Source: Pantoea agglomerans (lineage in GTDB: Bacteria; Pseudomonadota; Gammaproteobacteria; Enterobacterales; Enterobacteriaceae). Taken from it: a DNA stretch of 64,000 nt. A model generated the notes under the pieces. That model saw only the letters and a program-made list of their open reading frames with translations. It had not been told where the DNA came from and ran no database searches. Below are positions 32,411 through 37,654 of this stretch, one piece after another (within the stretch, counting starts at the first letter, position 1; every line of letters begins with the position of its first letter). The position numbers and the translations under genes are program-made. The DNA is taken from positions 1,426,001 to 1,490,000 of the forward strand of contig NZ_CP090207.1 of NCBI RefSeq assembly GCF_021397715.1, written 5' to 3'.

Positions 32411-32495
32411 TTCAGGCAGCTAATAATTATCAGCCTAACAAATTGTTAACCAACAGGTAACCTGCCGTGGCGATAAATCTCGATCTGTCTGCTTT

Positions 32496-32696
32496 TTAGC
32501 CCAGCCAGCGGCGCGCCTGCCGATCGCTGATATCGCGATAATAGACACGATGAATCATTTCGCCGCAGCCCGAACAGCGGGCGGAAATATAAGTGGAAAG
32601 ATAGTGTCTGCCATTTGGCGCAGTGGCACCGTGACGTTCGATATTAATGTCCTGCCATCGATGGCGGTGAGGAATAAGCGCTGACAATCGCATCAT
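32496..32696 (-). CDS. Small CxxC (zinc-ribbon-like) protein, copy 1
   Basis: 66 residues starting M-M-R-L, with AGGA just upstream; the second ATG has the better spacing. The frame is open 16 codons further, but the second copy has a stop there, so the shared start is preferred. The protein is basic, with histidines near the N-terminus (HRHRW) and a RCSGCGEMIHR motif, whose two cysteines and following histidine could hold a metal. I do not recognise the family. About ten of 65 residues differ from copy 2 at 35436-35636, while the CxxC core is unchanged, which suggests a real coding sequence. It lies in the left arm of a 534-bp duplication. Confidence 0.6.
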   Translation of the reverse strand: MMRLSALIPHRHRWQDINIERHGATAPNGRHYLSTYISARCSGCGEMIHRVYYRDISDRQARRWLG

Positions 32697-33036
32697 ACAT
32701 CCTGAATAGTATGAAGTTCCGCTTCCGGAGTCGTTTAACTCCATGAAAATAAGTGTTTTTTTTGCGATGCTGTGCGCAGGCTAATTATTATGGCGTGATG
32801 CAGCTTATCAATGGGAATAACATCCCCGCAGGGCGCTAATATCACCTACCTCAAAAGAGGTATATTTATAGCCCGCAGCATTAAGCCTGTTTTTGCCGTC
32901 ACAGGAATTGATCGGGATCATACGAAGTGTTACCGGCGCGAGGATTGATCGCGCAGGGGTGACTGGTTTTCGCTGCGACGGCTCCTTATGTTGCAGGCTG
33001 TAACGTGACTCGGGTGCTCTTGCTGGTGAAGGCTGA
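32503..33036 (+). repeat. Left copy of a 534-bp direct repeat flanking the guanine deaminase island
   Basis: Aligns base for base with 35443-35975, at roughly 90% or more by eye with a few single-base indels. It includes the small CxxC gene, its upstream region and the first half of a TPP riboswitch. Homology stops abruptly after GGCTGA at 33036. From there the sequence GGCTGAATCGTCAG (33031-33044) recurs once at 33174-33187. Confidence 0.9.
33005..33036 (+). pseudogene. Truncated TPP riboswitch (5' half only)
   Basis: GTGACTCGGGTGC...GAAGGCTGA corresponds to the first part of the intact thiM riboswitch (P1 5' strand, P2/P3 arm, up to CTGA). The conserved second half (TACCC-TTGAACCTGA-ATGCC-GCGTAGGGAA) is absent. 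It therefore cannot bind thiamine pyrophosphate in the known way. No thi gene follows it. Confidence 0.8.
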
Positions 33037-33673
33037 ATCGTCAGGGTTAACCCAGACACTTTCAATCCATTGAAAAAATTGGTTCTCATATTATGCCGGT
33101 GGCATCTGATTGCCTGAACCCCGCCAACGCCTGTTTTGAAGACGCTGGATCGCAGACTGCGCTGCATTGTAATGGCTGAATCGTCAGTGCCGTGCTTTTA
33201 TAACCAGGTATAGAGACTGCGTTGCTGATATCAAGGCGGGTAGTGATGCTTGCAATAGAATAGTCGCGATCAATAACCGCTTTGTCCGCTTAAATTTTCT
33301 GCTCTTCGGGAAAGGGTGAAGAGCGCTGCCACCCCTGGCAGAATGGCAAGTCAGTTAACCCATCAATAGTGGAGTGCGCTTTAATGTAAAGCTCTATATG
33401 TGTTCCAAAATGGGAAGATAAAAATTAAAAACAATTAAGGTTAGTGTAATAAAACCGTTTAATTATTTGTCACTTTTTAGGTGTGTTGAGATTTTTATTT
33501 GATTTATCAGAGCGATATAAAAAGGGTGGGGCGTTCAGGTCGTTTGTTTTGCTTAACCCGGCCCCATAATTCAACCGCATCTTTCGTATCTGGCGTCACT
33601 TACGATTTTCCTATCCTGTTGCTCCTGATTTGAAGTTGATGGATATAAAGATAATTTCTTAACGGAGTGGTCA
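33037..33673 (+). other. AT-rich gene-free leader before the guanine deaminase
   Basis: No gene is supported in this 637-bp stretch. The first third is GC-balanced and contains the second GGCTGAATCGTCAG; the last 250 bases are strongly AT-rich and should hold the promoter of the deaminase gene. A GCTCTTC/GAAGAGC hairpin lies near 33300-33325. Confidence 0.55.
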
Positions 33674-35032
33674 ATGAAACCTAAGTTTGTTGCTTTATTA
33701 TGTCTGTTTTCATTTTGTTCGGCGGCTGATACCGTTGGGTATCGAGGTGATATCCTTTATTTTAAAGGGGATCCCGCCAAAGACTCAGAGGCCACGGTTT
33801 ATATTAAGGATGGCTATCTTATTGTAAAAGACGGACGCATTGTTAAATCAGGTGACTATATATCGTTGAAGGATCAGCCTGTTGATAACACCGTCGATTA
33901 CAGCGGCAAAATTATTACTGCTGGATTTGTCGATACTCACGTTCATTATCCTCAGATCACGATGATCAGTGAATATGGTGAACAGCTGATTGGCTGGCTT
34001 AATACTTATACTTTTCCAACAGAGATAAAATATAAAAACCATCACTATGCTTCACAGCAAGCAGCAGAATTTCTTGACCAGTTGATCAACAACGGGACGA
34101 CCACTGCGCTGGTATTTGCGACCAGTTCACCGGTATCAGTCGATGCTTTTTTTGAGCAGGCGTTAAAACGCAATATGCGCATGATTAGCGGCAAGGTATT
34201 GATGGATCGAAACGCACCTGCAGAATTGCTGGATACGCCGCAGTCAGCCTATGAAGAGAGCAAATTGCTGATTGAGAAATGGCAGCACAAAGGACGGCTG
34301 GATTATGCGGTCACACCTCGCTTTGCGCCGACATCAACGGATCAGGAGTTGGCAGTCGCAGGAAGATTGCTTAAAGAATATCCCGATGTTTATCTGCATA
34401 CCCATTTAGCTGAAAACAATCAGGAAGTCGAATGGGTAAAACAGCTATTCCCGCAAAGTCGCAGCTACCTGGATGTTTATGATAAACATGGGCTGGTAAC
34501 CAAAAAATCGATTTTTGCCCACTCGATCCATCTCAACGATGATGACTTCAGGGTGCTGTCAGAGAAGAACGCTAATATTGCTTTTTGTCCTACTTCAAAT
34601 CTTTTTTTGGGCAGCGGGCTCTTTAACCTGGATAAATCAAGAGAATATCATATTCCTGTGGGCCTCGGGACGGACGTAGGTGCCGGTACCAGTTTATCTA
34701 TTATTCAGACAATGGATGAGGCTTATAAAGTCACACAAATGCGGAAAGCGTTTACTGATAAGCCAGAAGAAGTGCACTCTCTCACGCCGAGGGAAAATCT
34801 CTATCTGGCTACGCTTGGCGGTGCTACGGTGCTGTCCCTCCAGGATAAAATAGGCAGTCTGACGCCTGGCAAAGAAGCCGATTTTGTGGTGCTCGACCCT
34901 CTGGCCGGTCCGATTCTGTCTGAGCGTAACAAGCAGGCGAAAAATATCGACGAAATTCTGTTTGGTATGGAGATGCTGGGTGATGATCGCATCGTTGCGC
35001 ATACCTATGTGATGGGAAAGAAAATGAAATAA
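33674..35032 (+). CDS. Guanine deaminase family amidohydrolase with N-terminal signal peptide
   Basis: 452 residues. From residue 20 onward it aligns well with E. coli GuaD (recalled, 439 residues), which hydrolyses guanine to xanthine and ammonia. Zinc ligands are present: His89 and His91 (DTHVH), His244 (HTHLAEN), His283 (FAHSIH) and Asp334 (GLGTDVGAG). PRFAPT, FCPTSNLFLGSGLFNL and GKEADFVVLDP are also characteristic. Unlike GuaD it begins MKPK plus a hydrophobic stretch ending FCSA-AD, a credible Sec signal with cleavage near residue 17. No good lipobox is seen. The gene is AT-rich compared with the flanks, stands alone, and lies between long direct repeats, so recent acquisition is likely. 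Confidence 0.88.
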   Translation: MKPKFVALLCLFSFCSAADTVGYRGDILYFKGDPAKDSEATVYIKDGYLIVKDGRIVKSGDYISLKDQPVDNTVDYSGKIITAGFVDTHVHYPQITMISEYGEQLIGWLNTYTFPTEIKYKNHHYASQQAAEFLDQLINNGTTTALVFATSSPVSVDAFFEQALKRNMRMISGKVLMDRNAPAELLDTPQSAYEESKLLIEKWQHKGRLDYAVTPRFAPTSTDQELAVAGRLLKEYPDVYLHTHLAENNQEVEWVKQLFPQSRSYLDVYDKHGLVTKKSIFAHSIHLNDDDFRVLSEKNANIAFCPTSNLFLGSGLFNLDKSREYHIPVGLGTDVGAGTSLSIIQTMDEAYKVTQMRKAFTDKPEEVHSLTPRENLYLATLGGATVLSLQDKIGSLTPGKEADFVVLDPLAGPILSERNKQAKNIDEILFGMEMLGDDRIVAHTYVMGKKMK

Positions 35033-35442
35033 TCTGACATTTCGTGACGAGTAGAAAGACGGAGAATGCCCGAACCGCTTTTATCTGAGAGCGGTGTTAA
35101 CAGGCAGTAAGCCGACGCAATATATAAATTATAAGTCCTGCTAAAGGCGCTCTCCGTCTGTTTCTAAACCAATTTGACAGGCTTAAAGGCAATGTTCCTG
35201 TCACAAGCCGCCCGATTTACACTAACGGCACAAGAATCAATAGTTCAGGCGGTAGTACGCTTGTCACAGAGAATCGTCAATCACCATAAATTCCCGCATC
35301 AATGGGTGGTGAGGGCTCTTCGCCTGGCAAAAGGATGATTGTCTGCGCGTGAGCAAAGATAACGGGTTTTATAGCCACGCCTGGCAGAGAAATGCTTAGT
35401 GGCGACTAATTGAATTTAAGCCTGACAGTGTGATTTCACCTC
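35033..35442 (+). other. Gene-free interval after the guanine deaminase
   Basis: About 410 bases with no gene. Perfect 9-bp inverted arms AGACGGAGA (35057-35065) and TCTCCGTCT (35151-35159) bracket a hairpin ACCGCT/AGCGGT (35074-35095) that could end the deaminase transcript, although no T-tract follows. Confidence 0.5.
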
Positions 35443-35636
35443 AGCCCGCGGCGCGGCTGCCGATCGCTGATATCGCGATAATAGACACGATGAATCATTT
35501 CGCCGCAGCCCGAACAGCGGACGGAAATATAAGTGGGAATATAGTCTCTGCCGTTTGGCGCAGTGGCACCGTGACGTTCGATATTAATCTCCTGCCATTG
35601 ATGGCGGTGAAGAATAAGCGCTGACAATCGCATCAT
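35436..35636 (-). CDS. Small CxxC (zinc-ribbon-like) protein, copy 2
   Basis: 66 residues, start M-M-R-L after AGGA. The same RCSGCGEMIHRVYYRDISDRQ block is present as in copy 1 at 32496-32696. Function unknown and family not recognised. It is divergent from thiM and upstream of the TPP riboswitch. This copy is presumed to be the original locus because the riboswitch beside it is intact. Confidence 0.6.
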   Translation of the reverse strand: MMRLSALILHRHQWQEINIERHGATAPNGRDYIPTYISVRCSGCGEMIHRVYYRDISDRQPRRGLR

Positions 35637-35975
35637 ACATCCTGAATAGTATGAATTTCCGCTTCAACAGTCGTTCAACTCCCTGAAAATAGGTGTTTTT
35701 TTGCGATGCTGTGCGCAGGCTAATTCTTATGGCGTGATGCAGCTTATCAATGGAAATAACATCCCCGCAGGGCGCTAATATTACCTACCTCAAAAAAGGT
35801 GTATTTATAGCCCGCAGCATTAAGCCTGTTTTTGCCGTCACAGGAATTGATCGGGATCCTACGAAGTGTTACCGGCGCGAGGATTGCTCGCGCGGGGTGA
35901 CTTGCTTTCGCTGCGGCGGCTCCTTATGCTGCAGGCTGTAACATGACTCGGGGTGCCCTTCCACGTGAAGGCTGA
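35443..35975 (+). repeat. Right copy of the 534-bp direct repeat
   Basis: Counterpart of 32503-33036 in the same orientation. It continues without a break into the complete TPP riboswitch and thiM. Confidence 0.9.
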
Positions 35976-36020
35976 GAAATACCCGTTGAACCTGAACTGG
36001 ATAATGCCAGCGTAGGGAAG
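35944..36020 (+). promoter_or_regulatory. TPP (THI-box) riboswitch of thiMD
   Basis: All conserved blocks are present in order: ACTCGGGGTGCCC, GGCTGAGA, ATACCCG, TTGAACCTGA, ACTGGATAATGCCAGCG and TAGGGAA. It binds thiamine pyrophosphate and represses the downstream genes. In E. coli thiM control acts mainly on translation. Here the ribosome site GGAG at 36061-36064 lies about 40 bases after the aptamer. Confidence 0.96.
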
Positions 36021-36069
36021 TCTGATGCCTGACCGCATTCGCCTTCTTGTTCGCCGGTTGGGAGCTATG

Positions 36070-36867
36070 ATGAATCATCAATCTCAACACCTTTCTGCTG
36101 CGCAATTCGCGCCCATTCTGTACCGCTTCCGTCGCCAGTCACCACTGGTGCACTGCATGACCAATGACGTGGTTCAAAACTTTACCGCCAATGTGCTGCT
36201 GGCGCTCAACGCTTCGCCAGCGATGGTGATTGATGCAGAGGAGGCCGCGCAGTTCAGCGGTTTTGCCGATGCCTTGTTAATTAATGTCGGGACGCTGACC
36301 GCTGAGCGCCAGCAGGCGATGCAGGCGGCGATCACGGCTGCCCGTCAGGCCGGCACGCCCTGGACGCTGGATCCGGTGGCCGTTGGAGCACTGACGCTGC
36401 GCACGACTTTCTGTCAGCAGCTGCTGAGCCAGCAACCGGCGGTGATCCGGGGGAATGCCTCAGAGATTCTGACGCTGGCGCAGCAGGCCGGCGGCGGACG
36501 CGGAGTAGACAGCCTGCATCAGGCGGATGTGGCGCTGGAGGCGGCCCGGCAACTGGCCCGTGACTATCAGACGCTGGTGATCGTGACCGGCGAAGTGGAC
36601 TACGCTACCGACGGTCTGCGGACTTTTGCCATTCACGGCGGCAGCCCGCTGATGACGCGGGTGGTCGGCACCGGCTGCGCGTTGTCGGCAGTGGTGGCGG
36701 CCTTTAGCAGTCTGACCGGTGACCGGCTGCTCAACGTGGCGACGGCCTGTCAGGTGATGGCACGCGCCGGTGAGCAGGCAGCGGCAGGCTCGACCGGGCC
36801 AGGTAGTTTTGCCACGGCGTTTCTTGATGCGCTCTGGACGCTGGAGGTGAACCATGAAGCGCATTAA
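36070..36867 (+). CDS. thiM: Hydroxyethylthiazole kinase
   Basis: 265 residues (E. coli about 262). It phosphorylates 4-methyl-5-(2-hydroxyethyl)thiazole for thiamine salvage. Start at ATG 36070, five bases after GGAG; an in-frame ATG directly before it and another at 36025, too close to the aptamer, are less likely. Motifs: [18 protein letters not shown] near the N-terminus, [21 protein letters not shown] and the ATP-site loop [14 protein letters not shown]. It overlaps thiD by 14 bases. Controlled by the TPP riboswitch. Confidence 0.97.
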
Positions 36868-37654
36868 TGCCCTGACTATCGCCGGTACCGATCCCAGCGG
36901 CGGAGCGGGGATTCAGGCCGATCTGAAAACCTTTTCGGCGCTGGGCGCGTACGGCACCAGCGTGATCACCGCGCTGGTGGCGCAGAATACCCGAGGCGTC
37001 CAGTCGGTCTACCGCATCGATCCTGACTTTGTCGCCGCTCAGCTCGATTCAGTGCTGGATGATGTGCGTATCGACAGCGCGAAAATCGGCATGTTATCGG
37101 AAACCGCGATAGTAGAACGGGTCGCGGCACGGCTGAAGCGCGCTGAAATTCCCTTTGTGGTACTGGATACGGTGATGGTGGCGAAAAGCGGCGATGCGCT
37201 GCTCTCGCCGGATGCAATTGCCAGCGTGCGCGAACTGTTACTGCCTCAGGTGTCGCTGATCACGCCGAATCTGCCGGAGGCGGCGGCGTTGCTGGGATGT
37301 GCCGTAGCGCAGAATGAAGCGCAGATGCGGACGCAGGGCGAGGCGTTACTGGCAGCGGGATGTCAGGCGGTATTGATGAAAGGCGGACATCTTACGGCTG
37401 ACGACAGTCCGGACTGGCTGCTGACGCCTTCGGATCAGCTGCGGTTCAGCACGCCGCGCGTCAATACCCGGCATACCCACGGCACCGGTTGTACGCTGTC
37501 AGCAGCGCTGGCGGCATTGCGTCCCCGCTATGCGAACTGGGCAGATACGGTGGCTGAGGCCAAAGCCTGGTTGCAGCAGGCGCTGTTGCAGGCAGATTCA
37601 CTGGAGGTCGGGCAGGGGATTGGTCCGGTACACCATTTTCATCAATGGTGGTAA
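36854..37654 (+). CDS. thiD: Hydroxymethylpyrimidine/phosphomethylpyrimidine kinase
   Basis: 266 residues, same as E. coli ThiD. It makes HMP-phosphate and then HMP-pyrophosphate for thiamine synthesis and salvage. Ribokinase-like motifs: [18 protein letters not shown] at the N-terminus, [20 protein letters not shown], and the anion-hole loop [15 protein letters not shown] with its catalytic Cys. Start overlaps the end of thiM, so the two are translationally coupled. Confidence 0.97.

Follow-up and report, generated by a model that had tools for sequence, protein, structure and literature searches.

The leader of the vitamin B1 operon thiMD in a strain of Pantoea agglomerans is present in two copies, and a guanine deaminase gene, guaD, lies between them. 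We examined this arrangement in a 64,000-nucleotide stretch of the genome (contig NZ_CP090207.1, positions 1,426,001 to 1,490,000; the window) and compared it with other genomes. The account that we favor, at a probability of roughly 60%, is that guaD and a second copy of the leader entered by one crossover, that the two copies have since become specialized, and that the thiamine pyrophosphate (TPP) riboswitch of the leader, a hotspot for integration, provided the setting. A low-GC segment carrying guaD, with a second copy of ~540 bp, would have entered the thiM leader, probably after the split from the relative designated G026. The most likely route would be a single homologous crossover with DNA, circular or on a plasmid, in which the segment was already present. 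A crossover of this kind with circular DNA leaves direct repeats on both sides, and we infer it to be the simplest single event. The features of the locus, with riboswitch positions counted in nucleotides (nt), open reading frames abbreviated as ORFs and insertion sequence as IS, are the following.

32494..33036: left repeat copy (c1), with the CxxC gene, the intergenic region and riboswitch nt 1-37; from repeat search and alignment
32496..32696, minus strand: CxxC ORF of 66 amino acids, the kept copy; the same gene lies upstream of thiM genus-wide
33001..33036, plus strand: truncated TPP riboswitch (nt 1-37), from blastn, below the Rfam gathering score
33031..33311, minus strand (strand from L051): IS3-family remnant, an end and part of the transposase gene with an internal loss of ~0.87 kb
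33674..35032, plus strand: guanine deaminase gene guaD, 452 amino acids, with a signal-peptide-like N-terminus (by eye)
35033..35433: right part of the insert, with no relative found among 61 genus genomes or in plasmids
35434..35975: right repeat copy (c2), with a drifting CxxC ORF, the native upstream region and the riboswitch start
35939..36035, plus strand: complete TPP riboswitch, RF00059, 75 bits
36067..36867, plus strand: thiM (start 36067 or 36070, picked by eye; longest ORF from 36025)
36854..37654, plus strand: thiD

The initial annotation of this locus had described near-identical direct repeats that share a small CxxC gene and the thiM leader. Both points were confirmed, with best limits (32494-33036 and 35434-35975) slightly wider than originally given and with a left riboswitch that is partial. 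A repeat search of the window placed the copies in register as blocks of 269, 202, 59 and 25 nt with identities of 93, 96, 92 and 84%. In the alignment, 36 of 541 sites differ (6.7%), and the longest identical run is 64 bp. The minus-strand ORF of 66 amino acids is present in both copies. The complete TPP riboswitch is confined to the right copy, where it matches RF00059 over model positions 1-105 with 75 bits against a gathering score of 54.3 and is the sole Rfam gathering match in the window. The left copy retains nt 1-37 only and gives no RF00059 match at the gathering score.

The distribution of empty and occupied sites connects the insert with the duplication. We searched 61 genus genomes, of which 60 match the thiM region and were examined, the genome of the window included. 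Counts were made on the 52 genomes that carry the CxxC gene and the thiM riboswitch on one contig piece; the other eight comprise seven without a CxxC match and one (G012) in which the locus is divided between contigs. The spacing between the CxxC gene and the riboswitch is at most 404 bp (empty) in 26 of the 52 and at least 1278 bp (occupied) in the remaining 26. A second CxxC copy exists in the genome of the window alone (1/52), the double match in G070 being two overlapping pieces of one gene. Empty-site genomes include G026, G062, G078, G081, G060, G033, G025 and G016, and the nearest relative, G026, has flanks that are 95.1 and 94.5% identical to those of the window. The proposal that the insertion is tied to a duplication of its locus is supported by these counts, and the single-copy empty sites that it foresaw in relatives were found, for instance in G026, G062, G078 and G081. 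The opposite pattern, two copies in most relatives, was also looked for; a single genome of the 52 has two copies, and the proposal stands.

The age and fate of the copies can be read from their differences. With G062 and G078 as outgroups, c1 and c2 share seven derived sites, c1 and G026 share one, and c2 and G026 share none; the bootstrap value for the grouping of c1 with c2 is 87 (86 for the intergenic part alone). These values suggest, with moderate support, that the duplication most likely postdates the split from G026. Of the changes seen in one copy only, the CxxC segment has 13 in c2 and none in c1, the riboswitch segment has six in c1 and none in c2, and the stretch between the two segments has 12 and 7. 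As site patterns these counts show complementary decay, in which the left copy kept the CxxC gene and the right copy kept the riboswitch. The resulting division of labor leaves the CxxC gene to the left copy and the thiMD promoter region with the TPP riboswitch to the right one. That each copy kept one job speaks against a short-lived island. An unstable island, as first suggested, is unsupported given copies that are 6.7% apart and have decayed in this complementary fashion, although recombination between the repeats is possible.

The insert itself has a foreign look. As the initial annotation held, guaD is the sole guanine deaminase ORF between the repeat copies, and its product scores 558 bits against TIGR02967, above the equivalog cut-off of 375.4. 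Its GC content at third codon positions (0.450) is the lowest among 44 non-overlapping window ORFs of at least 200 amino acids, guaD counted (mean 0.688, standard deviation 0.059), which bears out the description of the segment as foreign-looking, and the GC content of the insert drops to 0.39-0.48 in 500-base windows. Elsewhere in the genus, a single full-length copy of the same type was found (G073, 82% identity); other genus matches belong to a second type at 47-53% identity or are fragments, and the second guaD of the source genome is 53% identical to that of the insert. Among plasmid copies, that of Salmonella is 75% identical, and those in the P. agglomerans records listed reach 74-81% across 61-69% of the length. 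A tyrosine recombinase gene adjoins guaD in G073 (by eye) and on one P. agglomerans plasmid, and none lies beside guaD in the window insert. The closest solved structure by sequence is the guanine deaminase PDB 6ohb, to which the catalytic part of GuaD aligned whole. Compared with known guanine deaminases (TIGR02967; PDB 6ohb), the window protein differs by its signal-peptide-like N-terminus, which by eye is common to the window, G073 and Salmonella plasmid copies and from which the enzyme is perhaps periplasmic. To the right of guaD, positions 35033-35440 have zero matches in the other 60 of the 61 genus genomes and zero in plasmids.

The insert had been described as free of any transposase. 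This needs correction, as no intact transposase is present, yet an IS3-family remnant begins where the left copy stops. Within 33030-33240 the remnant is matched by 332 plasmid records, further records match 33190-33311, and a Klebsiella plasmid IS copy aligns to it in two pieces, skipping 866 bp. Against other IS copies the match begins at 33033-33036 and overlaps the final letters of the left riboswitch fragment, and the left copy probably stops at nt 37 because the IS landed there. The IS3-family element would have cut the left riboswitch at this position and later decayed; its sequence is in place at the cut, and this order of events is the one that we would propose. A composite IS3-family transposon was also considered and was rejected, as the remnant is on the left side only and the right part of the insert matches nothing in the genus genomes or plasmids.

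The position of the IS tip at the end of the left copy would also suit a different order of events, in which the leader was first duplicated in tandem and the spacer then received the IS3-family element and guaD. The sister relationship of c1 and c2 is likewise in keeping with this order. It requires more events, however, and a bare duplication was seen in 0 of the 52 genomes, so that we regard it as a rather unlikely alternative to entry by a single crossover.

The site of the insert is one that other elements have used. In 12 of the 60 genus genomes, the window's included, an insert is flanked by a partial riboswitch on its left and, before thiM, by a complete one on its right; in G012 this arrangement is spread over two contigs. 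Nine of the 12 left riboswitches end at nt 77-81. In the 11 loci other than the window, the right riboswitch is similar from about nt 3-6 onward and is preceded by a distinct promoter-looking stretch (by eye). G010, G011, G012, G032, G072 and G079 have a tyrosine recombinase gene that starts immediately inside the left riboswitch; the gene of G012 is cut by the contig end or short, and G015 and G084 have integrase pieces (by eye in G084). Five of the integrases were scanned, and each matches PF00589; four exceed the Pfam cut-off and that of G011 falls just under it (25.8 vs 27.1 bits, E 1.1e-5). The R, HxxR, H and Y columns are invariant in the island integrases.

The association extends well beyond this genus. 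With the five genus integrases as the sole query and one genome per species, a scan for the integrase family yielded 25 loci in 14 Enterobacterales genera (Pantoea, Trabulsiella, Rahnella, Cedecea, Enterobacter, Pseudenterobacter, Silvania, Klebsiella, Winslowiella, Atlantibacter, Erwinia, Franconibacter, Mangrovibacter and Citrobacter). Six of these loci come from genomes of the Pantoea set (L138, L139, L144, L148, L159 and L162) and 19 are new. A TPP riboswitch lies just upstream of the integrase, on the same strand, in all 25, and the riboswitch similarity ends at nt 77 (13 loci), 78 (one), 79 (10) or 81 (one), positions that are numbered by the query used and that loop lengths shift by up to about two. 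For L141 and L153 blastn covers the riboswitch from nt 32 only, and the covariance model aligned the whole riboswitch. The retrieved DNA includes a second, complete riboswitch in 11 of the 25 loci, followed by thiM in 10; in the eleventh, L143, the retrieved DNA ends there. As controls, 30 guaD loci gave one TPP riboswitch match, the window's own, and a TPP riboswitch was found beside 0 of 12 more distant integrases and beside both of two close ones (one being that of G011 again). Within flanks of ~1.5 kb, no tRNA sites were found for the 12 distant integrases. Phage and plasmid records held no close relatives of the integrases, the best match being 42% in a 4.8 Mb record listed among plasmids. 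Comparison of these loci shows the thiM TPP riboswitch to behave as a recurrent integration site of one tyrosine recombinase family. The riboswitch would serve as the attachment site of the family, with islands joining at ~nt 77-81. By the same comparison, islands appear to supply their own upstream region and aptamer, and a complete riboswitch is thereby retained ahead of thiM.

Some of the genus islands have further features. In G011, G015, G029, G006 and G034 the right riboswitch is preceded, at a distance of ~30-55 bp, by a partial copy of riboswitch nt 44-85 in inverted orientation. The islands of G032 and G079 (~17 kb; L055-L056, L122-L123) each encode a protein of ~1,590 amino acids in a similar gene order and are possibly an integrated small virus or satellite. 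The island of G031 (L036 5182-5451, 5921-6046) contains an isrN RNA match and a small peptide that by eye looks like one with a double-glycine leader.

Escherichia coli allows a comparison with an empty site, that of K-12 MG1655. One family integrase matches 221 of 5426 complete E. coli genomes, and we inspected 11 of the 221 matches and one strain found through its split site. In all 12 loci a riboswitch fragment precedes the integrase and ends at nt 77-79; that of PapRG-06-3 is unannotated as a riboswitch, yet is present in the sequence. Five of these loci were read against K-12. In two of them the right aptamer differs from K-12 in its variable loop, and so came with the island; in the other three it is identical. 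The riboswitch beside the integrases might merely regulate the integrase gene rather than be the remains of an attachment site, and its position in all 25 loci, upstream and on the strand of the integrase, would be expected for a regulator. This reading is highly improbable in view of the same five E. coli loci, in which the left copy has its native left flank and is identical to the K-12 site as far as nt 77 or 79, and the right copy continues into thiM as the native sequence does. The regulatory and attachment-site roles could both hold at once.

In 4689 of the 5426 genomes a single place covers at least 80% of the 561-bp rcnR-riboswitch-thiM stretch, and 684 more match it only in part; of these, the loci inspected are the ones named here. 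All five scanned cargo proteins match defense models, for example TIR-like ThsB, AbiU and type IV restriction. Besides the tyrosine integrase, the E. coli islands L166-L169, L170 and L192 hold a gene annotated as a recombinase family protein. Several of the E. coli records H211-H215, which are split at the thiM riboswitch, are labelled O157. In strain VG35A2 (L191 12268-12317, 23495-23555), a different integrase interrupts the thiM riboswitch at nt 37-50, after which thiM retains riboswitch nt 37-97 and the 5' part of the aptamer is gone. The element carries capsid and head-decoration genes and is presumably phage-satellite-like.

Given this hotspot, guaD could instead have been the cargo of a TPP-riboswitch integrase island that later lost its integrase. 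DNA from an empty-site strain of the same lineage would then have restored the native upstream region and riboswitch, and an illegitimate join on the left would have duplicated the CxxC gene. The site is the same, and a partial left and a complete right riboswitch are seen here as in the islands. However, neither island DNA nor any piece of the family integrase is present in the insert (the best tblastn match has an E of 0.16), and the right riboswitch of the window is preceded, unlike those of the islands, by the native upstream region. The left riboswitch of the window ends at nt 37, at the IS3-family tip. Because the integrase is absent and the native upstream region is kept, we rejected the classification of the guaD insert as a TPP-riboswitch integrase island, and we consider a former island of this kind improbable.

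Several observations weigh against entry by one crossover at an integration hotspot. The genus genomes and plasmids yielded no donor DNA in which guaD stands next to a CxxC-riboswitch segment. The insert has no detectable DNA in common with the islands and lacks an integrase, and the hotspot may therefore be merely the setting. The dating of the duplication has moderate bootstrap support. Three of the 12 genus loci with a left fragment depart from the usual left end, G031 (nt 70 in one comparison and 66 in another), G003 (nt 48 and 19, likewise) and the window itself (nt 37). Among the 26 occupied genus loci, 16 lack a left riboswitch fragment, so that not every insert at this site fits the integrase pattern, and several occupied loci share conserved gene blocks that may be old gene content rather than islands. 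In E. coli 19KM1776 (L189 478-520) the left fragment comprises nt 37-79 only and is preceded by satellite-like DNA, a picture that suggests a tandem of two elements within a single riboswitch. Separately, G084, which is among the 16 loci, holds an integrase-looking piece (by eye).

The classical integration sites that islands restore are tRNA genes or the ends of genes. In the present case a leader that senses a metabolite takes that place, and integration swaps the upstream region and the sensor of the vitamin B1 operon and adds defense-like cargo. In the work on dusA-associated integrases and islands (PMC4482086), tyrosine recombinase islands likewise integrate in the 5' portion of a host gene and provide it with a substitute 5' end, and putative promoters are still in place. 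The thiM-leader islands differ in that they use a non-coding metabolite sensor and replace both the aptamer and the upstream region, and the integrase group appears to differ from the dusA-associated one. The system named in PMC12884075 resembles the present one in that the island enters and restores a conserved structured RNA; the thiM site differs in being a cis-acting riboswitch that is restored from the 5' side. The cargo, with its matches to TIR, AbiU-like and restriction-like models, is similar to that of the E. coli defense islands in PMC10121019, the main text of which, supplements aside, mentions neither thiM, rcnR nor a riboswitch. Among the papers listed in searches of the open literature, with supplements and most subscription papers lying outside it, none described a riboswitch as an attachment site, and the novelty of such a site is provisional.

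We suggest, as a doubtful extension, that the riboswitch aptamer is a portable attachment site that islands, on entry, hand to thiMD together with their own upstream region; the operon and the mobility of the island could then both be gated by vitamin B1 status. If so, the excised circle would place the same aptamer before the integrase gene. As part of this reading, the splitting of the same riboswitch by a second, different integrase in VG35A2 would make the riboswitch a shared landing pad. The hotspot helps to explain the frequent interruption of the thiM leader in enteric bacteria, and the thiM-leader islands offer a simple test bed for the takeover of host regulation by mobile DNA. The window adds a further outcome to this set, a duplicated leader in which two copies have divided the jobs between them.

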